Below, piece after piece: positions 27,617-38,128 of a stretch of 64,000 nt of DNA. The position numbers and the translations under genes were made by a program. The stretch is from NCBI GenBank assembly GCA_937950315.1, contig CALFDU010000013.1:29728-93727 (forward strand), written 5' to 3'. Origin of the DNA: an uncultured Saprospiraceae bacterium (GTDB taxonomy: Bacteria; Bacteroidota; Bacteroidia; Chitinophagales; Saprospiraceae). The notes beneath the pieces are model-generated. The model saw only the letters and a program-made list of their open reading frames with translations. It made no database searches and was not told the origin of the DNA. Position 1 is the stretch's first letter; every line of letters starts with the position of its first letter.

Positions 27617-30600
27617 CTAGTTAATCTTAACAAACTTTTTGTTACTCAATTTCTTGCCCGCTTGGAATAGGATAGAGTAGTTTCCTTCTGGCAAGTCGCT
27701 CACATCAATTGTAGATTCAAAAGCTGATTCTTTAAGCTTTTGCCCTAGAGCGTTAAAAATCAGATATCGATCCAATATAACTTCACTCGAAATTGTCAAA
27801 ATATCAGTGGTAGGATTTGGTGATAGATTGATCGCTAAGGATAATTCTGGATCGAATGTCGAATCAAGAAATCCAATATCTCCGATATATCTTGGTAGCA
27901 ATTGATAACCAGAATCAAATGGATCACTGTTGTCAAACTGACCACCTAGTCCGATAATAAATAGACTAGTCGCTCCTGGGATTGATGTATTTGCGTATTC
28001 TGTGTCATTGTCAATTCTTACAACAAAATCATTGGTGCCATCTGTAGCATCCATATTAAATGAGCTGCCATCACCAGCCCATTGTGTTGGGTCGGTAAAG
28101 TTTACAAAATTGATAACGACAAGACTTGATTCAGTGTCCTCATTCAATTCAGTAACCACTTCAGGGATTACCAAAGGATTTCCTTGGCTTACCAAAGTAA
28201 TTGTTTCAGGATTGATCTGGGTTAAGCCATTGAATTGACCGATTGTACCTTCCATCGTTACAATGTCTCCTTCAGTAACTGTATAACCACTTGTGTTATC
28301 ATTTTGGAATACGCCAATACCGTTGTTGTCATCATCAATCACGGTCATGATCAAGTCGCCTCCTGAGAGATTTACGCCGTAGACGGTGCCTGTCAAAGTA
28401 CACGCCACGCCCAAGGAGTCAGCTACACCCACTGCATCTACGGTCGTCATCTCAGCGATGGTACGCGGTGGGAATGGATTAAAGTTAGGGTCAAACAATC
28501 TGATGTCGCTTTCGTATCTAGGAAGTATTTGGTAACCTTCGGTAAATGGATCGCTGTTGTCAAATTGTCCTCCGATACCAATAATATCGTATACATCTCC
28601 TGTCGGTGCAGGCTGGGTAGACCAGTAGGTGTCGTTGTCTATTCTGACCGTGTGTACAGTCATTCCATCTGTGAATTCTACATTGAATGATGATCCGTCA
28701 CCAAACCAATCCAATGGATCAACCAATGAAACATTTTTAAGGGTCACGAGACTTGATTCTGTGGTCTCCTCCAGTAGTGTTACTTCCGCTGGTTCAATCA
28801 AGTCATTGCCTTGACTGATCAAAAGAATAGAATCTGGATTCATTTGTGTCAATCCATTGAACTGACTGATCGTTCCTTTTAAAGTTACGATGTCTCCTTC
28901 CACTACTTCATACGTGAATGCACCATTTTCAAACACGTTGATTCCTTCGTTGTTTTCATCAATGATGGTAAAGGCAAGATCAAATGATGAAAGATTGATG
29001 CCGTATACCGTTCCAGTCAATGCACAAGTTGCATCCAATGAATCAGCAATTCCTGTTACAGGATCCACCGTTGTCATCTCTGGAATAGTCCTATCTGGGT
29101 AGATGTTGTCTTCCTCAGAAACAAATGGCATGTACGGGTCAATGTCTTCAAAAAATCTTGGGAACAACTGATATCCTTCGTCAAACGGAGCACTGTTGTC
29201 AAATTGACCCCCGATTCCTGTTACAGTAAAAGTTCCAGTAGGGTAGTTAAGTCCAAATATGTCTTCTACATCCGCATCGATTCTCATCGTCACGGTTTCT
29301 GTTCCATTTGAAATATCGACATTGAAACCCGACCCTGAATTGGTCCACTGAGAAGCATCGGTCAATGACATGCCTTCCATTGTTATCAATTGTGATTCGG
29401 TCTCTTCATTTAGTGTCGTGACCAGTGTTGGTTCATGTAGTAAGTTGCCAGTGTTGATTAGTGTGATACTCGTCGGTACGATCTGAGCCAATCCATTGAA
29501 TTGGTCCATCGTTCCTGTAATGGTTACTTTGTCTCCTTGCGTTACTGTGTATCCTAAGTTGTCGTCAAACAAAAATACACCTACACCATCGTTGTTGTCA
29601 TCGATGATGGTAAACTGCAATCCACCTGGTCTCATGTTGATTCCATATACGTTTCCAGTGGTTGTTACTTCTTGATCCAATGAAAGGATGACACCATCTG
29701 CATCAGTCTCTGTGATTTCTCCAATGGAGAATCCACCACAAGCATTTAGACTTGATGGACTTCCTACAATACCAGGGCTTGCCACAACTTCACTCGTCGA
29801 TGCAACCCAGTTGGTAGGATCGTTTGCTGATCCTGTTAACGGACAAAAAGTGATGGACGTACCTGTCTCCACTTCGGGCCAAGGTGCGCTGTTGGTGTAA
29901 GTGACTTCATCAATCACGGTTCCAAGGTTGGAAACCAATGCTACCGTTCCACTGTCGTCACCCAATGATTCTGTGTCAGACCATCTAAAACTAGGAACAC
30001 CAAATATGGTTCCGATGGCACCATTGTCTTTTCCTACAACAAAATATCCATTTGGTAAAATCATCAAAGGAGGAAGATTGTAGTTGATATCTCCAGAGAT
30101 ACTCCATCCCGCCATACTCACTGTATCAGTTCCAAAGTTGAACAACTCGATGTATTCCAATGAATCAGTAGTATACATGATTTCGTTTACAGCAATATCC
30201 ATATATTCTTCATTGATTACAGAACAGTCTGCTTGGTTGGCCATGGAAGGACTTCCGAATACTTGTGTTCCATTGATCATCATGCCTGAATCCGTCGTAG
30301 AGAATCCCCAGTTTAAAGGATTGCTATTGTCAGCATTTAGGTCGCATAATTCTAGTGATGCGCCAGCTCCATCTGCATTGGGAGACCATGGACTTTGGCT
30401 GCTGTAGCTCACTGCATTTACCAGTGAGCTATCTGGAGCAAACAATCCTATTTCTTCACCTGAATTATTCAATGCACCATCTGTCCATTGTATTGCAGCA
30501 ACTTGGAATACACCTTCAAAAGCTACTGCAGATCTAGCGATAGTCAGGTAAGACTCAGCGGCCATTGGCTGATCTCCAAAAGTAAGTTCTACTCCTTCGG

Positions 30601-30766
30601 TATAGTAACCTTGTAGATTGAGTTCAGCGCCGGTATTGTTGTATATTTCTATATACTCTAAAGAGTCTGCTCCTGATTCAGGCGGATTGTACATGATTTC
30701 CGTAATAATCTGTCCGTAAGACATTGAACATATTACAAAAAATAATAATGTGTTGAATAGCTTCAT
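27617..30766 (-). CDS. Secreted lamin-tail-domain protein with three OB-fold-like repeats and T9SS type A tail
   Basis: A 1049-residue exported protein with a signal peptide (about 1-18, ending M-S-Y-G-Q). Two lamin-tail domains follow (about 20-140 and 190-330), each with the hallmark E-I-M-Y, Y-I-E-(I/L)-(Y/F)-N and a G-W/G-Y turn. Three successive repeats of about 200 residues occupy 340-545, 560-760 and 767-955. Each has T-G-x-V-Y-G-(I/V)-N, a D-x-N-x-G-(I/V) turn, G-D-x-V-T-(I/L/M)-x-G-T and Q-F-N-G-L-x-Q, ending in G-G-Q-F-D-N-S. This looks like OB-fold modules of the type found in extracellular nucleases. The last ~75 residues form a T9SS type A tail. No nuclease catalytic domain is visible, so the protein is probably a binding or scaffold protein. 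Confidence 0.9.
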   Translation of the reverse strand: MKLFNTLLFFVICSMSYGQIITEIMYNPPESGADSLEYIEIYNNTGAELNLQGYYTEGVELTFGDQPMAAESYLTIARSAVAFEGVFQVAAIQWTDGALNNSGEEIGLFAPDSSLVNAVSYSSQSPWSPNADGAGASLELCDLNADNSNPLNWGFSTTDSGMMINGTQVFGSPSMANQADCSVINEEYMDIAVNEIMYTTDSLEYIELFNFGTDTVSMAGWSISGDINYNLPPLMILPNGYFVVGKDNGAIGTIFGVPSFRWSDTESLGDDSGTVALVSNLGTVIDEVTYTNSAPWPEVETGTSITFCPLTGSANDPTNWVASTSEVVASPGIVGSPSSLNACGGFSIGEITETDADGVILSLDQEVTTTGNVYGINMRPGGLQFTIIDDNNDGVGVFLFDDNLGYTVTQGDKVTITGTMDQFNGLAQIVPTSITLINTGNLLHEPTLVTTLNEETESQLITMEGMSLTDASQWTNSGSGFNVDISNGTETVTMRIDADVEDIFGLNYPTGTFTVTGIGGQFDNSAPFDEGYQLFPRFFEDIDPYMPFVSEEDNIYPDRTIPEMTTVDPVTGIADSLDATCALTGTVYGINLSSFDLAFTIIDENNEGINVFENGAFTYEVVEGDIVTLKGTISQFNGLTQMNPDSILLISQGNDLIEPAEVTLLEETTESSLVTLKNVSLVDPLDWFGDGSSFNVEFTDGMTVHTVRIDNDTYWSTQPAPTGDVYDIIGIGGQFDNSDPFTEGYQILPRYESDIRLFDPNFNPFPPRTIAEMTTVDAVGVADSLGVACTLTGTVYGVNLSGGDLIMTVIDDDNNGIGVFQNDNTSGYTVTEGDIVTMEGTIGQFNGLTQINPETITLVSQGNPLVIPEVVTELNEDTESSLVVINFVNFTDPTQWAGDGSSFNMDATDGTNDFVVRIDNDTEYANTSIPGATSLFIIGLGGQFDNSDPFDSGYQLLPRYIGDIGFLDSTFDPELSLAINLSPNPTTDILTISSEVILDRYLIFNALGQKLKESAFESTIDVSDLPEGNYSILFQAGKKLSNKKFVKIN

Positions 30767-30975: not shown

Positions 30976-31896
30976 TCAATCAGGTATAAAAATCTCTGCC
31001 AGCATACATCTTACACTACCTCCTCCATATTTTTCAATGGTAGGAATATCTACGGCAAGGATGCGATTTGTTTTTTCGATGAGGGCTACTTGTTCTTGTG
31101 TTAAAGAAGCTCTAGCGGTAGTAGACATAATCAGGAATCGACTCATGTCGTTGGATCTCATTTCAAGCATGTTGCCGGCAAATTGTTCGACTTGGTCCAA
31201 GCTAATTTCTACAATTGTTTTTTTATTTTTAAGCAATTGATTTTTAACCACCTTGCGTTCGTCTTCGTCACTGATTGCATCGAGGGCTATGATCGCCAAC
31301 TGTTCACCAAGGGCCATCATGACATTGGTGTGGTAGATGGGTTGTTCTCGTTTGTCATGTGCGAAAAAATAGATGGGTTTGTAATTCATCAGAATCCCAA
31401 ATTTGGAAAGTAACTGTATGCTCGTACGAGAAGAAAGGCACGCATATACAATTCTATTTTCTCTATCGAGGATCATACTTCCGGTTCCTTCAAGCGCTAG
31501 TCCTTCTTCTACGATATAGTGTTGGAAATTGTATTCTTTTTTGTAGCCATATACTTCTTCTAGTTTTCGCAGTACATCATCCCTCAGCTCTTGCCTACGA
31601 ATCGGAGATTCCATCGCGTAAGTGATCAATGCTTTGTTTTGGTGTGTGCTGATCCAGTTGTTGGGAAAGATGGCGTCGGGAGTATGAGGTGATTCTGTGT
31701 CATCAATGACAAGCACATCGATATTATTTTCTCTTAATGTTTTTACGACCTCTTCAAATTCGGCCAGGGCTTTGTTGTGCACATCGGCATCGTCTTTCCC
31801 GTCTGCTGACTGAAAGTGATTGCTTGCAGCTGTTTCTTCATTGTATCCAAATCTTGCTGGTCTTACCATCAAGACTGTGTTTGTTATTTGCCTCAT
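30976..31896 (-). CDS. ctlX: Citrulline-utilisation-type hydrolase CtlX (amidinotransferase fold)
   Basis: A 306-residue pentein-fold enzyme of the arginine deiminase/amidinotransferase superfamily. Expected active-site features are visible: acidic residue and Asn in D74-A-I-F-P-N-N-W, E136-G-T-G-S, His189 in Y-H-T-N-V, and the catalytic Cys297 in G-G-S-V-R-C-M-L-A-E near the C-terminus. This set matches the family annotated as CtlX, proposed to hydrolyse citrulline or a similar ureido/guanidino compound to ornithine, CO2 and ammonia. The cytoplasmic location follows from the lack of a signal peptide. The gene starts 4 bases after the stop of the transporter gene, so the two are probably one transcript. 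Confidence 0.9.
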   Translation of the reverse strand: MRQITNTVLMVRPARFGYNEETAASNHFQSADGKDDADVHNKALAEFEEVVKTLRENNIDVLVIDDTESPHTPDAIFPNNWISTHQNKALITYAMESPIRRQELRDDVLRKLEEVYGYKKEYNFQHYIVEEGLALEGTGSMILDRENRIVYACLSSRTSIQLLSKFGILMNYKPIYFFAHDKREQPIYHTNVMMALGEQLAIIALDAISDEDERKVVKNQLLKNKKTIVEISLDQVEQFAGNMLEMRSNDMSRFLIMSTTARASLTQEQVALIEKTNRILAVDIPTIEKYGGGSVRCMLAEIFIPD

Positions 31897-31900
31897 AAAA

Positions 31901-32686
31901 TCACTTTAATAAAGCCTCTTCTTTTAATTGAGAAGCTAAATTTGCTCCAAGATAGCTATCAATCAAGTGATGCGCAAGATAAATCGCAGGAGTTAGCACA
32001 ATTGCGACGCTGAACTTATAAATGTAGTTGACGATACCAATGGCCAAAACTCTGACCAATTCCCAGTCTGCCCCAATATAAAATGCGATAAATAACACGA
32101 CAAAACTATCTATGAATTGTGATACAAGGGTAGAGCCAGTTGCTCTTAACCATATTTTTCCTTCGCCCGTTTTTTGCTTGATTTTTTGAAAAACATAAAC
32201 GTCAATCAATTGTCCTACCAAGAATGCCACCAAGGATCCTACAATGATCCATAGTCCTTGACCAAATATTTTTTGAAAGGCCAGATTCATGTTGCTAAGG
32301 CTTAAAGACTGATCGTTGTTCAATCCGCTGATCGAATTCCACCAATCATTGGGAGGCAAAGCGATAGCCATAAATATGATCATAAAGGCAAACACAATCA
32401 GGCCTGCTGTTAAATAGCTGAGAAATTGAACTCCTTTTTTTCCAAAATATTCATTGATGACATCTGTCATGATGAATACCACTGGCCATAGCAGAACGCC
32501 CGCTGTCAGATTAAATCCAAGATCTTTGACTCCGAAAATGGTCCAGTTCATCGATTCATAACCAAAGACTTTTTCGAGCGAAAAAATCTTGACGCCGATC
32601 ATCTCAGCCACAAGGGCATTGCAGATGAAAAACCCACCTAAAATTAAAAATAACTTCGTTGCCTTATTGGATAAAACTGAGGACAT
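31901..32686 (-). CDS. Queuosine precursor transporter (YhhQ/VUT family)
   Basis: A 261-residue inner-membrane protein with about six hydrophobic segments. It has the family landmarks in the first half: N-A-L-V-A-E-M-I-G, then F-I-M-T-D-V-I-N-E-Y-F-G-K-K near residues 74-87. In the second half it has S-L-V-A-F-L-V-G-Q-L-I-D-V-Y-V-F and a conserved R-x-T-G-S-T-L-V-S-Q-F-I-D-S. The family imports 7-deazaguanine precursors (preQ0/preQ1 or queuine) for tRNA queuosine modification. I looked upstream for a preQ1 riboswitch and saw none. It is the first gene of the pair with the CtlX-type hydrolase. Confidence 0.9.
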   Translation of the reverse strand: MSSVLSNKATKLFLILGGFFICNALVAEMIGVKIFSLEKVFGYESMNWTIFGVKDLGFNLTAGVLLWPVVFIMTDVINEYFGKKGVQFLSYLTAGLIVFAFMIIFMAIALPPNDWWNSISGLNNDQSLSLSNMNLAFQKIFGQGLWIIVGSLVAFLVGQLIDVYVFQKIKQKTGEGKIWLRATGSTLVSQFIDSFVVLFIAFYIGADWELVRVLAIGIVNYIYKFSVAIVLTPAIYLAHHLIDSYLGANLASQLKEEALLK

Positions 32687-32737: not shown

Positions 32738-34411
32738 CTACAGTCTTATTTCTGCTCCTATCGATATTCCAGCCAATCCTAAATTTTGTCTGATAGGATT
32801 GAAATCTTGATTGTTGATAGATGCCAGATTGTATTTGTATGAAGCATTGGTGAAGACCGACCATCGTTTGTTGATGTTGAATCTTGCTCCAGCTCCTCCG
32901 TACAAACTTACTCCTGTCTGGTTTAGGAAGAAATTTTCACCTGAGACAACTTCGTTGTTGGTGTCAAGCAATGTTCCTTCGTAGCTGAATCTAACATTAT
33001 AGAAAATACCTGCTTCACCAAAGTAGTCCCATCTTTTTGAAATTGGTGCTTCATATCCTATGATGATAGGGATATTAAATGAGTGATATTTATTGTATTT
33101 TTTCCACACTGTAGTCCTGATAACCTGCATGGTGCCAGGCCCCAACACTGGTATGGTGTCACCTTCCATGTCAATTCTGTAAGCGATGATGGTTTCTGGA
33201 TCAAAGATTTGATCTTGTGTTACCAAAGTAGATTCAAATTTTTCTCTGATTTGATCATATTCAACACCTGCTTTCACATACACATTGGGGTTTAGATTGT
33301 ATTTGATCAATGCGCCTGCTTTTAATACTTCCAGAAATTGCATGGTGCTTTGTCTTGTGATCAGATACTCATCTGGTTCTGCGGTGTCTGTTCTTGATCT
33401 GTCATTGGTGACCAAGTCTATCCCTACGTAGGGGAGTATGCTAAACTTACTTCTGTCTGCAGTCCAGTTGTCGTAGCAATCTACACGATTTCTCAATCTC
33501 AAAGCCCCACTGCATGCATCGCCTTTTAGTGCATCGCACACGTCTCTATCGTCCTTTGCGTAATTAAGACTAGGGGCATGGTTGAGCGCTTGAAGCGATG
33601 CCATAATCAAATTGCTTGACGTTTCTTTTGTTGCGCTGTTGGTAACAATCTTTTCCGCTTTTTCAGTGAATGCTCCTATTGCATTTTGTGCATTATTGTT
33701 TTGGGCACTTTCGTAAATGTTGTTTGTGCTAGTACCGCCAGTACCTATGTTGCCAGTTGATCCTCCTGCGGCGACTTGGCCTTGGTCAGGTCTTTCGGAA
33801 ACTGACTTTTCTGCTGATGTTTTATTGTCTGCCAATCCTGAAGTATAGCTGTTCTTTTCTTTTGCTTTTGCAGCTGATTTTTTTGTGTTGGTCGTTGTGT
33901 TGTTTTTTAACTGGCTAGTTGTATTTGTCTTAGAAGTGGTGTTTGAGTTGAGGGTTGTGTTTGAATTAGAAGTTCGAGTTATTGCTATGTTGTTGGGTGC
34001 ACTTTCGTTAGAAGATGTAATACTATTTCTTGTATTGTCTGTTTCACCAGTCTTTATTGAATTAAGATTGGTGTTGTCGACACTTGCATTGCTTTGTTTA
34101 GGAGCATTGGCAATATTTGCGGAAGCGAGATCGGAATTTAATTCAGAAGATATATTTCCTGTATTTATTGACTCCGTTAAGTCTTGCGTATCTGATGTCA
34201 TATAACTCTGACCCACATACAGAGTTCCCATCAAAAGTACGGCTAGGATACCAAGACCAAGATATTTCCTAAACGAAAATCCTGGGGTAGGGCTTGGGTT
34301 ATCCTGATCCATTTTGGATTCAATGCCTGCCCATAAATCGTTGGTGTCTATAGGAGTGTGCAAGTCGTAAAGTTTGCTCTTTACGGTGCGGTCTAGCTTA
34401 TCTTTGCCCAT
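32738..34411 (-). CDS. Probable dual-membrane-spanning anti-sigma factor: cytoplasmic N-terminus, TM helix, linker, outer-membrane barrel
   Basis: A 557-residue protein with unusual topology. Residues 1-48 are charged and cytoplasmic-like. Residues 50-68 form one TM helix with no signal-peptidase-like site after it. Residues 72-270 are a low-complexity Asn/Ser/Thr/Ala/Lys linker. Residues 285-315 hold Cys292, Cys300 and Cys312. Residues 323-557 have alternating beta strands of an outer-membrane barrel, ending in I-S-I-G-A-E-I-R-L. Its start overlaps the ECF sigma gene by 19 bases, which strongly suggests that it controls that sigma factor. The layout matches the Dma type of anti-sigma factor reported in Bacteroides thetaiotaomicron. 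The N-terminal anti-sigma function is inferred from position and topology, not from a recognised motif. Confidence 0.8.
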   Translation of the reverse strand: MGKDKLDRTVKSKLYDLHTPIDTNDLWAGIESKMDQDNPSPTPGFSFRKYLGLGILAVLLMGTLYVGQSYMTSDTQDLTESINTGNISSELNSDLASANIANAPKQSNASVDNTNLNSIKTGETDNTRNSITSSNESAPNNIAITRTSNSNTTLNSNTTSKTNTTSQLKNNTTTNTKKSAAKAKEKNSYTSGLADNKTSAEKSVSERPDQGQVAAGGSTGNIGTGGTSTNNIYESAQNNNAQNAIGAFTEKAEKIVTNSATKETSSNLIMASLQALNHAPSLNYAKDDRDVCDALKGDACSGALRLRNRVDCYDNWTADRSKFSILPYVGIDLVTNDRSRTDTAEPDEYLITRQSTMQFLEVLKAGALIKYNLNPNVYVKAGVEYDQIREKFESTLVTQDQIFDPETIIAYRIDMEGDTIPVLGPGTMQVIRTTVWKKYNKYHSFNIPIIIGYEAPISKRWDYFGEAGIFYNVRFSYEGTLLDTNNEVVSGENFFLNQTGVSLYGGAGARFNINKRWSVFTNASYKYNLASINNQDFNPIRQNLGLAGISIGAEIRL

Positions 34412-34959
34412 GACTCATCAGTTTGCATATTAATTAATTTTTTTCTCAATAATTGTTTGGCACGTGAAAGTTGAGATCGAGAAGTTACCTCCTTGATGCC
34501 CAACATTTCTCCGATTTCTCTATGGTTGTAACCTTCCACTACTGCAAGGTTGAAAATCTGTCTATATCCATCTGGAAGGGTCCGGACGATCTTCAATAAA
34601 TCCTCTGCAGCGAGTTTGTCTGTTACATCAGAAGCCTTGGTGAGATGAGAAACATTGTCTCCGATCTCAGACTCCATTCTTGACTTCTGTTTTTTTATTT
34701 GCTTCAAGGCTACATTGATCGTTACACGACGCATCCATCCTTGCAATGAACCTCGCTCACAATCGTAGGTATGTATTCCTTTAAAAATCCTTATAAAACT
34801 ATCTTGCAAAACATCCTTGGCCAAATGTGCCTCACCCATATACCGCAGACAGACTGTGTACAGCATACTTGAGAAAGTGTCAACCAATTCTCTTTGTGCG
34901 GTTGGGTCTTTATTGACACAACCTTCTACGAGTTGTTTTAAATCCGGATTATTCAGCAT
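34393..34959 (-). CDS. RNA polymerase sigma-70 factor, ECF subfamily
   Basis: A 188-residue ECF sigma factor with region 2 (about 22-90, with D-V-L-Q-D-S-F-I-R-I-F and G-S-L-Q-G-W-M-R-R-V-T-I-N) and region 4 (about 128-178, L-P-D-G-Y-R-Q-I-F-N-L-A-V-V-E-G-Y, then the helix-turn-helix H-R-E-I-G-E-M-L-G-I). There is no extra C-terminal domain. The 19-base overlap with the barrel-protein gene downstream implies coupled synthesis of sigma factor and regulator. The lipoprotein gene ends 48 bases upstream on the same strand and may be a target or part of the operon. Its own promoter and regulon cannot be read here. Confidence 0.95.
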   Translation of the reverse strand: MLNNPDLKQLVEGCVNKDPTAQRELVDTFSSMLYTVCLRYMGEAHLAKDVLQDSFIRIFKGIHTYDCERGSLQGWMRRVTINVALKQIKKQKSRMESEIGDNVSHLTKASDVTDKLAAEDLLKIVRTLPDGYRQIFNLAVVEGYNHREIGEMLGIKEVTSRSQLSRAKQLLRKKLINMQTDESWAKIS

Positions 34960-35007: not shown

Positions 35008-37935
35008 TTATATTTCAGTATAACCTGCATCAATATATAATATTACATCTCCACAGTTTACTGTGAATATATCGGTAAATCGAGTCATTGGATCAGGATC
35101 ACTTCCATCAGGGTCAGTAATGTCTTCCGCCTGTGGTACCAGTACATATCCTGCTGGTTGAATAAATTCTACTCTGAATTCACCATCATATTGACCTGCG
35201 AAAAGGTAGCTGCCAGATGCATCAGTGACTGTTTCATCAATGAGTGTCGATCCATCACTATTGTATAATCTAACGGTTACTCCCTCCAGTGGAGAATCTC
35301 CAGTATCAAATATACCTGATTGACCTCCAGGCATATCCACCCAAGCCATATTTCCAATTCTCGCTCCAAAATCCAAAATGGTTATGGTCTGATCCAAAGA
35401 CTGACATCCATTTCCATCAGTGGCAACATAGGTATAAGTGCCAGGTGCCAAATCTGATACTGTATTTGCAGTGATGCCTAGCTCGTACCAGAAGATCGAT
35501 ACATCTTGAATTGGAGGAAAGCTAATAGAACCGAAAGGTTCACCGCAAGTTGCATGTTCAATAACTGGGTCATTCAGTTCAATAAATTCAGCATAGAGTA
35601 ACACTTCATTTTCACACACTGCCCCCGAAGCATCTGATATTATTACCGTATAGTTTCCTTCCTCAAAGACCGTAATGTCAGGGGTTGTTTCACCTGTGCT
35701 CCATTCATAAGAGTAAGGAGGAATACCTGTGGTCACCTCTGTGGTTATCTGAATGGGCTCTCCTAAGCAAATGGATAAAGTGCCTGAAGGATTTATACCA
35801 CATTGAAGCGCTTCTCTTTCTATCAAACCAAATCCAATATCAAATAGATATTCTTGATCTCCAATGATGTATTCATTTGATACTCCGCTAACATTGAAAT
35901 CGGAATCTTGATTGTCATTGCCAGCATCCTGAAGCGTTAACTGCCATTCGTTGGCTGAAACTCCTCTTAAAAGGTTGGAGAATACTCTCAAGGTGAAAGG
36001 TACATCTGCTAGCACATGGGTTCTAAAGCTTCCATCAGGAAGAACATTTACGGCAATGGTATTGTCGCTTTGATCAAGTAAGAAATTTGCCGGGTAGGGA
36101 GTTGGTTCTCCAGTATCGTAAATTCCATTTTCATTTTCATCAATCCATGCTTGACCAATGACAACACCATTGGGTTTGTACTCATCCAAAAACATACTGA
36201 ATTCACCAGAGACTTCAACTTCATTTCCATTATTTAGGTCATATAAAAATCCCGAAAAGGTTCCCTCGATGAGATCATCTGCATTTCTTCCTATGCTGGT
36301 GATATTAATATTGAAATCTGAACACAGTGTTTCAGCTATGTCTGGCACACAAGATATGAATTGATTTGAATTAACTAATACCCTAGAATTGTGTGGATTT
36401 TGACTACCCAATTTAGGGTCGAGAAGGGTTGCTTGGAAAGACCTTATCAAAGAATCAGATGTTCCAAAATGCAATCCATTGTTTCCGTAAGTAGCAAAAA
36501 TTTCATAACTATATCCTATGTCAACACCATCAACTGTCATGCGTATGAATTCTTCTGGTACCTCTTCGCATGCCTCAATATCTCCCAAGTCCCAAAGGCC
36601 TTCTTCATCAATGGTAATGAATATTTCTTCACTTGAAAAGGTTTCTGCCGTATTGAAAACCTGAATGGCTACTTCATTTATGTTGGCAGAACAAGAAAAT
36701 CTTGCTTCCAGAAAGCTACCATCACTGTCTAGTTCTATAACTATGGTTTCTTCTTCGTATTGTATTCTTACGTATCCTGTAGTTAGGATTTCTCCGTTGC
36801 AATAGGCCGTTCCTGAGATGATTGATATAAAACTAGTAGTCTCGACTTCAATGTTAGGTAAAGTAGTGTCGGTATTGAATGGTCCGACAGAGGTTTCAAA
36901 AACGACATTTTCACATTGATCTAAAATACTAATAATCAATTCTGTATCTGCAGGTACTTTGCCTGAAAACTGACCTTGCGCATTGGTATTTCCATAACCA
37001 CTAAACCCAGAATCTGCAATGTCTATTCTGACAGAGGTGTTGGCCAACGGAATACCATCGATATTGGTTACCGTACCAGACAAATGAACAAGCGGGTAAG
37101 GCCAATCACAGTTCCAAAATGAGAAATGAGATACTTCTCCAACATAGTTTCCTTCTACCAAAACACATGACCCATCTTCTTCCCAAAAGCCAGTGTCTTC
37201 ATTAAATGACCACAACGGCATCGTGCCCGGAAGATTGTCAAAATCTGGAGCAGTCATGCTCAGTGTAGCAGTGGTGTTTTCTTTTAAATTAAGTTTTTGT
37301 CCATTGTTGCCAATCAATTCAACAGCAACCATTCCATAACTGGCCAAGGCTCTGATGTTGTTTTCTGCATCTACCGCTCTTAAATCACCTGGCATTGAAA
37401 GGCCGACGTTGTTGTCATTGACATCGTACCAATGAAAAAATACTTCTACATTTCCTATGTATTCATCCTCCGTTCCATCAAATACAATACTGTTCGGTTG
37501 GAAAACAATGCTTGCATTCTCAATCGAGACTGTACCTCCTTCAGCTGCATCAAATTCATTGGTAGAAGTACGCTCAATCAACATCACCTTAATGTAAGTC
37601 TGGTTTGATTGCTCAGGGTAGACAAACTTAAAGCTCTGATAAAAACCTGCTTTGTTGATGGTAATCATCGAGCCCGTACTATTCAAGGATACGATGTTGT
37701 CAAAACGGAAATAACCGTTTTCGTCTGATGTTTGAGTAAAACTGGTGAAGTCAATGACGGCATTCTCAATTGGGTTACCTTGTTCGTCGACAATCAATCC
37801 AGAAAATCCAGAATCTTCAAGGATTGGTGGATTTTGTTGAACTATAACTTCGGTAGTTTCCCCGTCAATGTCCTTTCGGCATCCGAAGATGGTTAATGTT
37901 GCGAGTAGTATAACAATTAACGTATTAAATCTCAT
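35008..37935 (-). CDS. Large surface lipoprotein with carboxypeptidase-regulatory-like and SdrD B-like domains
   Basis: A 975-residue lipoprotein. The N-terminus has a signal peptide with lipobox ending T-I-F-G-C (Cys19). A carboxypeptidase-regulatory-like domain follows (about 42-130: V-D-E-Q-G-N-P-I-E-N-A ... D-E-N-G-Y-F-R-F). A large middle region follows, with a second such domain at about 280-345 (G-T-V-T-N-I-D-G-I-P-L-A-N). A SprB-like repeat (Y-S-Y-E-W-S-T-G-E-T-T, about 737-770) and a terminal SdrD B-like domain (about 858-970) complete it. There is no T9SS tail. The lipid anchor suggests outer-membrane attachment. It sits directly upstream of the ECF sigma gene. Function unknown. Confidence 0.88.
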   Translation of the reverse strand: MRFNTLIVILLATLTIFGCRKDIDGETTEVIVQQNPPILEDSGFSGLIVDEQGNPIENAVIDFTSFTQTSDENGYFRFDNIVSLNSTGSMITINKAGFYQSFKFVYPEQSNQTYIKVMLIERTSTNEFDAAEGGTVSIENASIVFQPNSIVFDGTEDEYIGNVEVFFHWYDVNDNNVGLSMPGDLRAVDAENNIRALASYGMVAVELIGNNGQKLNLKENTTATLSMTAPDFDNLPGTMPLWSFNEDTGFWEEDGSCVLVEGNYVGEVSHFSFWNCDWPYPLVHLSGTVTNIDGIPLANTSVRIDIADSGFSGYGNTNAQGQFSGKVPADTELIISILDQCENVVFETSVGPFNTDTTLPNIEVETTSFISIISGTAYCNGEILTTGYVRIQYEEETIVIELDSDGSFLEARFSCSANINEVAIQVFNTAETFSSEEIFITIDEEGLWDLGDIEACEEVPEEFIRMTVDGVDIGYSYEIFATYGNNGLHFGTSDSLIRSFQATLLDPKLGSQNPHNSRVLVNSNQFISCVPDIAETLCSDFNINITSIGRNADDLIEGTFSGFLYDLNNGNEVEVSGEFSMFLDEYKPNGVVIGQAWIDENENGIYDTGEPTPYPANFLLDQSDNTIAVNVLPDGSFRTHVLADVPFTLRVFSNLLRGVSANEWQLTLQDAGNDNQDSDFNVSGVSNEYIIGDQEYLFDIGFGLIEREALQCGINPSGTLSICLGEPIQITTEVTTGIPPYSYEWSTGETTPDITVFEEGNYTVIISDASGAVCENEVLLYAEFIELNDPVIEHATCGEPFGSISFPPIQDVSIFWYELGITANTVSDLAPGTYTYVATDGNGCQSLDQTITILDFGARIGNMAWVDMPGGQSGIFDTGDSPLEGVTVRLYNSDGSTLIDETVTDASGSYLFAGQYDGEFRVEFIQPAGYVLVPQAEDITDPDGSDPDPMTRFTDIFTVNCGDVILYIDAGYTEI

Positions 37936-38128
37936 GTGCTTCTTTATTTCAAAGGTGTCATACTATAAATAATATTGGTCTTTCGACCTAACGTGTATAA
38001 TATCTATGGACAGGGTAAAACGTTGCACCTTTTTTGGAAATAATTGTTCTTGTTTAAAAATGATATAATATGTCAAATAAATATATGTATAAATATTTGG
38101 TATGTAAGATATTATTTCAAATTGTCAT

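Follow-up and report, generated by a model that had tools for sequence, protein, structure and literature searches.

A predicted Dma-type anti-sigma factor paired with an ECF sigma factor in an uncultured Saprospiraceae bacterium, and a lipoprotein gene that recurs upstream of such pairs

The window analysed here is a stretch of 64,000 nucleotides from an uncultured Saprospiraceae bacterium (assembly GCA_937950315.1, contig CALFDU010000013.1, positions 29,728 to 93,727), in which two overlapping genes encode an extracytoplasmic function (ECF) sigma factor and a protein ending in an outer-membrane barrel. Very probably the barrel protein is a dual-membrane-spanning anti-sigma factor (Dma) that reaches across the envelope, clamps the sigma factor encoded just upstream and releases it upon an event at the outer membrane, with the operon regulating itself. 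The Dma reading, made in an original prediction from the DNA letters, is largely right, with support from the architecture, from homology to Bacteroides Dma orthologues and from co-variation between the N-terminus and the sigma factor; two attached claims, an extension of the range of the type and a three-cysteine switch, were not borne out. New here are a recurrent lipoprotein-sigma-Dma cassette, a promoter-like element, and relatives with two to five tandem sigma-binding units. The features of the pair are as follows.

34393..34959, minus strand: ECF sigma factor, 188 amino acids (sigma2, residues 25-93; sigma4, residues 119-171)
32738..34411, minus strand: predicted Dma-type anti-sigma factor, 557 amino acids (Pfam, profile comparison, AlphaFold2)
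34393..34411, minus strand: 19-bp overlap of the sigma and barrel reading frames (open reading frame calls)
34277..34411, minus strand: predicted cytoplasmic sigma-binding domain, residues 1-45, with helices 5-14 and 23-36 and W27 (model and couplings)
34199..34273, minus strand: predicted single transmembrane helix, residues 47-71 (model)
33446..34198, minus strand: predicted disordered periplasmic tether, residues 72-322, 44% N/S/T/Q (predicted local distance difference test, pLDDT, and composition)
32741..33445, minus strand: predicted C-terminal outer-membrane barrel, residues 323-557, OmpA-like, with eight long strands (Pfam, model, Foldseek)

Open reading frame (ORF) calls bear out both genes and their overlap as first described. 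Both ECF regions are present in the sigma factor (Pfam Sigma70_r2, 1.2e-14; Sigma70_r4_2, 1.2e-13), and the barrel protein matches OMP_b-brl (4.8e-07) and Opacity (2.3e-06), each above its cut-off. The 19-bp overlap had been taken to argue for stoichiometric production. Overlap as such recurs in 176 of 211 complete pairs, but the argument is weakened because the commonest length is 4 bp (97/211), 19 bp being merely one value among several.

Used as a query, the barrel protein found matches in 27 of 60 genomes, its own included. An ECF sigma gene adjoins upstream in 29 of 30 distinct barrel ORFs, again counting the window's own, so the adjacency is not due to chance. These 30 are the ORFs for which a stretch was returned, further matches having come without one (L029 is a second stretch of the gene in L005); the single exception, L031, has no sigma gene on its stretch. 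A family profile of 34 rows matched 128/150 genomes of the window's family (E up to 1e-20), 117/248 of its order (E up to 1e-15), 113/198 of its class (E up to 1e-9) and 33/148 of the phylum (E up to 1e-6), 32 of these 33 lying in the window's class; the counts include some matches to the barrel alone or the N-terminus alone. A protein search with this profile (E up to 1e-10) returned 13 proteins, 12 found before and one from Kordia. The window's own genome matches at 15 places, and of the ten examined, eight are complete sigma-Dma pairs while contig ends truncate the other two; in one of the eight (contig C54) the C-terminal part falls below the barrel-profile threshold and is barrel-like by eye. 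Among the named matches listed, the one closest to the sigma factor (51% identical) comes from a Saprospiraceae metagenome-assembled genome (P0060), in line with the Saprospiria lineage guessed originally.

An AlphaFold2 model of the barrel protein, run on a 34-row alignment (mean pLDDT 67.6 for the whole model), places helices at 5-14 and 23-36 ahead of a transmembrane helix at 47-71, gives residues 75 to 314 mostly pLDDT < 50, and folds 323-557 into eight long strands with pLDDT mostly above 90. The best PDB match of this part is the OmpA transmembrane barrel 9fzc_A (Foldseek TM-score 0.70 by target length); a PDB search with the family profile gave no convincing match (best E 0.083). As a prediction, then, the topology proposed before (short N-terminus, one transmembrane helix, linker, C-terminal barrel) is upheld by AlphaFold2 and Pfam, and where a non-barrel fold of residues 323-557 had been named as counting against it, the predicted fold is a confident eight-stranded OmpA-like barrel. 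K and R are richer before the transmembrane helix than after it in 190 of 215 complete relatives, as the positive-inside rule would have it, and the Trp at the W27 column is conserved in 91% of 176 pairs. One chain is thus predicted to span both membranes, on the grounds of these models and of the published Dma family. Cysteines do lie at 292, 300 and 312, but the periplasmic switch ascribed to them is no family feature: all three are conserved in 4 of 11 near relatives examined (P0002-P0005), and only the third is widespread, a Cys 235-285 residues from the C-terminus occurring in 100/215 complete proteins. A three-cysteine redox switch common to the family was therefore rejected.

The Dma family has been described as occurring solely among Bacteroidota (PMC13088901). 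In that account Dma2 is one chain with an N-terminal sigma-binding domain, a transmembrane helix, a disordered tether and a C-terminal barrel, and Bacteroides thetaiotaomicron Dma2-Das2 corresponds to BT_1558/BT_1559, with genes for DUF4943, DUF4858 and nitronate monooxygenase downstream. By its predicted structure, the window protein qualifies under this four-part description. Since its lineage belongs to the same phylum, and since the module is common in its family, the finding adds a member and does not extend the type to a distant lineage as the original prediction had it. Dma2 orthologues were recognised by the published gene order, not by B. thetaiotaomicron locus tags, with NigD_N marking Bacteroides-like genomes. 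In Bacteroides ihuae the genes for sigma factor, barrel protein, DUF4943, DUF4858 and nitronate monooxygenase are consecutive, which is the published Dma2 operon order. A profile of the window's order, built without Bacteroides sequences, matches the barrel protein of this operon at 3e-19 in the ORF set, where the N-terminal part by itself scores 2e-05, and at 3.1e-11 in the whole genome. An hhalign comparison with 16 Bacteroides Dma proteins scored 99.2% (E 1.2e-19) over the barrel, so the profile check proposed for the Dma claim came out in its favour. In these 16 proteins L16, W28 and L31 are invariant (L...W..L), resembling L14, W27 and I30 of the window protein.

The anti-sigma role gains independent support from co-variation. 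From 279 non-redundant sigma/anti-sigma pairs we used 211 that had a barrel match, full length and a transmembrane start within 25-75 residues, and dropped 68. Mean-field couplings between the sigma factor and the N-terminus had a top-10 mean of 1.87 and a maximum of 3.22, versus 1.08-1.15 and 1.26-1.43 for six barrel control segments of equal width; the strongest coupling within the sigma factor was 3.53. In an earlier run of 176 pairs the values were 1.35 and 1.56, with 12 shuffled pairings at 0.77-0.94 and 0.85-1.38. The identical ten pairs rank first under three other parameter choices. Sigma positions were mapped on Escherichia coli RpoE (MG1655) and compared with a set of 16 interface residues, made up of R178 and the 15 contacts that Table 2 of PMC7406223 gives as common to four class I structures. 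The top ten pairs involve nine distinct sigma positions, of which five (RpoE 35, 131, 178, 22 and 26) belong to this set (hypergeometric p 3e-4), versus 0-2 of 8-10 positions for the six barrel controls.

The top ten couplings also suggest how the N-terminus would lie on the sigma factor. Helix 1 (D7, V10) couples to sigma4 (L121, L138, L164, K168). The partners of the loop and helix 2 (L17, T19, D22, M34) lie in sigma2 (Q22, V26, T35, L38, K60). D7 pairs with K168, which aligns with RpoE R178; according to PMC7406223, RseA D11 in helix 1 contacts R178 in sigma4, RseA helix 4 contacts sigma2, and CnrY contacts both sigma4 and sigma2 with two helices. The three-helix bundle plus helix 4 of class I (RseA type) is absent from the model, which has two helices before the transmembrane segment; the class I placement of helix 1 on sigma4 and the last helix on sigma2 appears in the top-ten couplings only. 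The class II (CnrY type) arrangement, two helices on sigma4 and then sigma2, is seen in both the couplings and the predicted helices. In a matching test, from which training sequences with >= 70% sigma identity to the test set had been removed, the N-terminus picked its cognate sigma factor first in 67 of 211 cases and four barrel segments did so in 37-51. Common ancestry accounts for part of the signal, but hardly for its excess or its positions, and we infer that the N-terminus binds and inhibits the sigma factor.

The sigma-binding unit varies in number and context. By profile, 12 of the 279 proteins carry at least two tandem units before the transmembrane helix; a 638-residue protein of the window's own genome (C54, L137 6814-8730) has four such units by profile, or five when counted by eye. 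Another five proteins (L067, L068, L069, L073 and L079; 244-263 amino acids) are short but complete: they follow a sigma gene and carry the same unit at the N-terminus, with no barrel match. Tandem copies and barrel-less forms together indicate that the unit behaves as a module. In Bacteroides salyersiae (L158 1429-3057) we observed a Dma3-like fusion of sigma factor, transmembrane helix, linker and barrel without a W-motif unit; here the tethered part would be the sigma factor itself. This fusion was dropped as a docking template, there being no W-motif unit between sigma factor and transmembrane helix.

Transcription on the minus strand runs from a lipoprotein gene through the sigma gene to the barrel protein gene, and two further features therefore belong to the operon.

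35008..37935, minus strand: predicted lipoprotein gene, 975 amino acids (ORF, Pfam, lipobox, all-beta model)
37998..38026, minus strand: promoter-like element GCAACG-N17-ATATTA, 91 bp from element start (38026) to lipoprotein start

The lipoprotein, left unmentioned in the original prediction, is in our judgement the more novel part, and a limited literature search found no report that connects a lipoprotein of this sort with a sigma/anti-sigma pair of this kind. Its gene ends 48 bp before the sigma gene. It has CarboxypepD_reg and SdrD_B domains, and after the lipobox Cys19 comes RKDID, which resembles a surface-export signal; that of Capnocytophaga is C-X-K-(D/E)2-X (PMC5080379). By our own pattern, 80 of 104 distinct lipoproteins have a lipobox and 47 of the 80 start C-x-[KR]-[DE], with the second acidic residue in place in 11 only; surface exposure is likely on these motifs. 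The all-beta model is moderate (pLDDT 70.6; predicted TM-score, pTM, 0.39), and in the PDB it matches chains of beta domains at low TM-scores, first among them the Aureispira grappling-hook protein. We also observed a weak match, short of the cut-off, to FAM171A1-2-B_N (E 0.0027, and 2.7e-4 in L037); this Pfam family takes its name from FAM171 proteins.

Profile A2 was built from 11 lipoproteins chosen upstream of sigma genes, so the cassette test leans to that position. With this profile, 102 of 120 family genomes yielded lipoproteins. Seventy stretches were taken, 30 for the best matches and 40 hand-picked from other rows regardless of neighbours, and the sigma gene comes directly after the lipoprotein gene in 54 of 72 evaluable cases (3 of 75 were not evaluable), or 47/64 without eight seed rows; for other genes in the same stretches the figure is 1/135. 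An anti-sigma gene follows the sigma gene in 51 of the 54 cassettes, two others running off the stretch and one lacking it. The reverse count is weaker. Among pairs chosen by anti-sigma match, a lipoprotein gene lies <=500 bp upstream in 11/56 (55 from the family, one from the order), an underestimate because several lipoprotein pairs already fetched were passed over when choosing family stretches, and within 500 bp upstream in 1/55 pairs of other families. The lipoprotein thus marks a subgroup of sigma-Dma pairs. In four of the 72 evaluable cases the lipoprotein gene is followed by another lipoprotein gene, and at L038 (9897-14197) it is duplicated in tandem before one sigma-Dma pair.

The promoter-like element belongs to a class (GCARCG, spacer, T-rich box) that is enriched at operon heads. 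A plain k-mer search was dominated by A/T runs; its discriminative version gave the motif. GCARCGW lies upstream of 30/68 lipoprotein genes preceding a sigma gene (Fisher 1e-16) and 36/93 sigma genes without an upstream neighbour (Fisher 3.5e-17), each versus 65/1055 control regions, and a T stands at offset 24 from the motif in 89% and 88% of instances versus 50% in controls. In nine of ten Dma2-type Bacteroides operons GCAGCATT...GCGTCTAA lies 31-74 bp upstream of the annotated sigma start, and the tenth (L157) has GCAGCATT with an altered box; the box pair was not seen at four nigD-linked Bacteroides pairs nor at the L158 fusion. Within the window's own genome the motif is visible at the window operon and at the pair on contig C60, straddles the annotated lipoprotein start at C6, and was not seen at five other pairs. 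That C60 pair (L036 6976-9864) has its own GCAGCG element 50 bp ahead of the sigma gene; the lipoprotein-like gene at this locus is a different one and lies downstream. An own-genome search with one strict pattern derived from the window's element gave the operon's own site as the only exact match and defined no regulon. The GCAACG element suggests that the window operon is autoregulated; a rise of das2 on dma2 deletion in B. thetaiotaomicron (log2 4.54; PMC13088901) fits this.

We propose the following sequence of events. At rest the chain would cross the inner membrane and periplasm by its helix and tether, with the barrel seated in the outer membrane. Sigma4 would be covered by helix 1 and sigma2 by helix 2; RseA and CnrY block these two surfaces, and with both clamped the sigma factor would be kept from RNA polymerase. 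Some event at the outer membrane would tug at the chain, cleave it or let it go. Once free, the sigma factor would start transcription of its operon at the GCAACG element that precedes the lipoprotein gene. The lipoprotein would most likely be either a surface partner of the barrel or a main product of the response. More tentatively, there may be a three-part relay in which the exported lipoprotein docks on the barrel exterior and sets the state of the tether, its loss or a ligand freeing the sigma factor without a periplasmic go-between, while the two-helix clamp is a portable unit whose copies, up to five, hold several sigma factors.

Several points weigh against this proposal. Because hhalign aligned the barrel only, homology of the N-termini rests on a short profile and a motif, and the Dma comparison was made with Bacteroides orthologues, not with B. 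thetaiotaomicron Dma1 and Dma2 themselves. For couplings, 211 sequences are few; six random half-sets were noisier, with 2-6 interface positions and p 3e-5 to 0.12 (one had 2/7, p 0.12, the others 3-6 of 8-10), and couplings past the top ten are mixed, for example L6-I58 (sigma2) and G29-Q169 (sigma4). The interface p-value treats positions as independent, common ancestry ties the sigma factor to the barrel as well, though less, in the matching test, and the contact is read from couplings, the structure models being single-chain. The motif core is absent from more than half of the upstream regions. Lastly, the signal-peptidase cut after the transmembrane helix, which the original prediction had named as damaging, gave a divided answer among 215 relatives: the strict A-x-A is rare (20/215), but a looser pattern occurs in 121/215, so such cleavage is conceivable.

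With cleavage, the protein could be a plain outer-membrane protein, its N-terminal helix serving as a long signal anchor, and the sigma factor would be free or otherwise controlled. The loose pattern speaks for this, as does the fact that the topology is a prediction; set against it are the scarcity of the strict site, some 45 residues ahead of the transmembrane helix with a near-invariant Trp, their co-variation with the sigma factor, and the sigma gene adjoining in 29/30 loci, the window's own included, and we think it very unlikely. Slightly less improbable, though still unlikely, is an anti-sigma factor whose barrel is cut off in normal cells, the inner-membrane part being conventional and the barrel a separate sensor or removable. 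The five complete short versions among 279 paired proteins would suit it, but the barrel profile matches on the same chain in 251 of 279 deduplicated pairs, many others being cut by stretch ends, and Dma2 is described as a single chain with tether and barrel (PMC13088901). Coupling of an ECF sigma factor to an outer-membrane barrel also recalls FecR-type cell-surface signalling with a TonB-dependent receptor. This can practically be dismissed, contradicted as it is by domain content: the three proteins have no FecR, STN, plug or TonB-receptor domain (Pfam, E up to 1), and the modelled barrel is eight-stranded.

The part played by the lipoprotein is a more even matter. We give about equal weight to its being a regulon product only, with no share in sensing, like NigD under EcfO-Reo. 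The same kind of promoter-like element precedes lipoprotein and sigma genes, some Bacteroides pairs are linked to nigD and others are followed by a DUF4943 lipoprotein, and in Phocaeicola vulgatus NigD lipoproteins are made only with EcfO free (PMC13114119). Set against this is the close positional tie to sigma-Dma pairs (54/72 evaluable); the tie does not separate partner from product, so this explanation stands.

A Dma-type clamp would bear on a wider question. In one survey a class I anti-sigma neighbour was found for only 6% of Bacteroidetes ECF sigma factors versus 32% on average, and other modes of control were suggested (PMC7406223). For one large group the co-variation map offers an answer, a barrel-fused two-helix unit of about 45 residues with RseA-like contact sites, and singles out the residue pairs D7-K168, T19-T35, V10-L121 and M34-Q22. 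If the clamp is indeed portable, it would go some way towards accounting for the lack of a class I neighbour in most Bacteroidota ECF sigma factors, and if up to five copies act together, one outer-membrane sensor could hold several sigma molecules. The lipoprotein cassette provides a candidate for what sits at, or emerges from, the sensor's outer end, and the promoter-like element could permit regulon prediction.

Beyond the operon, the locus is syntenic with that of three other genomes of the genus (L032-L034), where, as in the window, a Vut_1 transporter gene (window 31901-32686) and a DDAH-like gene (window 30976-31896) come after the pair. The window also encodes, at 27617-30766, a 1049-residue protein with lamin-tail domains and a Por_Secre_tail, by which it is a probable type IX secretion cargo.

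Among known systems, CnrY-CnrH has a periplasmic partner, CnrX, that senses metal, and is not known to have a barrel on the CnrY chain. By description, the predicted sigma-binding domain resembles this class II system in its two helices, the first on sigma4 and the last on sigma2 (PMC7406223, PMC4598750). With RseA-RpoE (PMC7406223) it shares top coupled sigma positions (RpoE 22, 26, 35, 131 and 178) and an acidic helix-1 residue paired with R178 in RpoE and K168 in the window sigma factor, but it has two helices in about 45 residues where RseA has a three-helix bundle plus helix 4. EcfO-Reo of Bacteroides and Phocaeicola (PMC9308784, PMC13114119) likewise has a barrel-bearing anti-sigma factor predicted to span the periplasm and surface lipoproteins (NigD) in its regulon, but NigD is another protein family (Pfam NigD_N/NigD_C), encoded divergently to the pair in L126, L127 and L159. 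Dma2-Das2 has the same order of N-terminal sigma-binding domain, transmembrane helix, disordered tether and C-terminal barrel that is predicted here, a sigma gene directly upstream (with a 17-bp overlap in the B. ihuae orthologue, L128) and, in Bacteroides orthologues, a GCAGC...GTCTA element upstream of the sigma gene. The two systems differ in their barrels, 12% identical in profile alignment, and in their neighbours, DUF4943, DUF4858 and nitronate monooxygenase genes downstream in B. thetaiotaomicron and a carboxypeptidase-regulatory-like lipoprotein gene upstream in the window.

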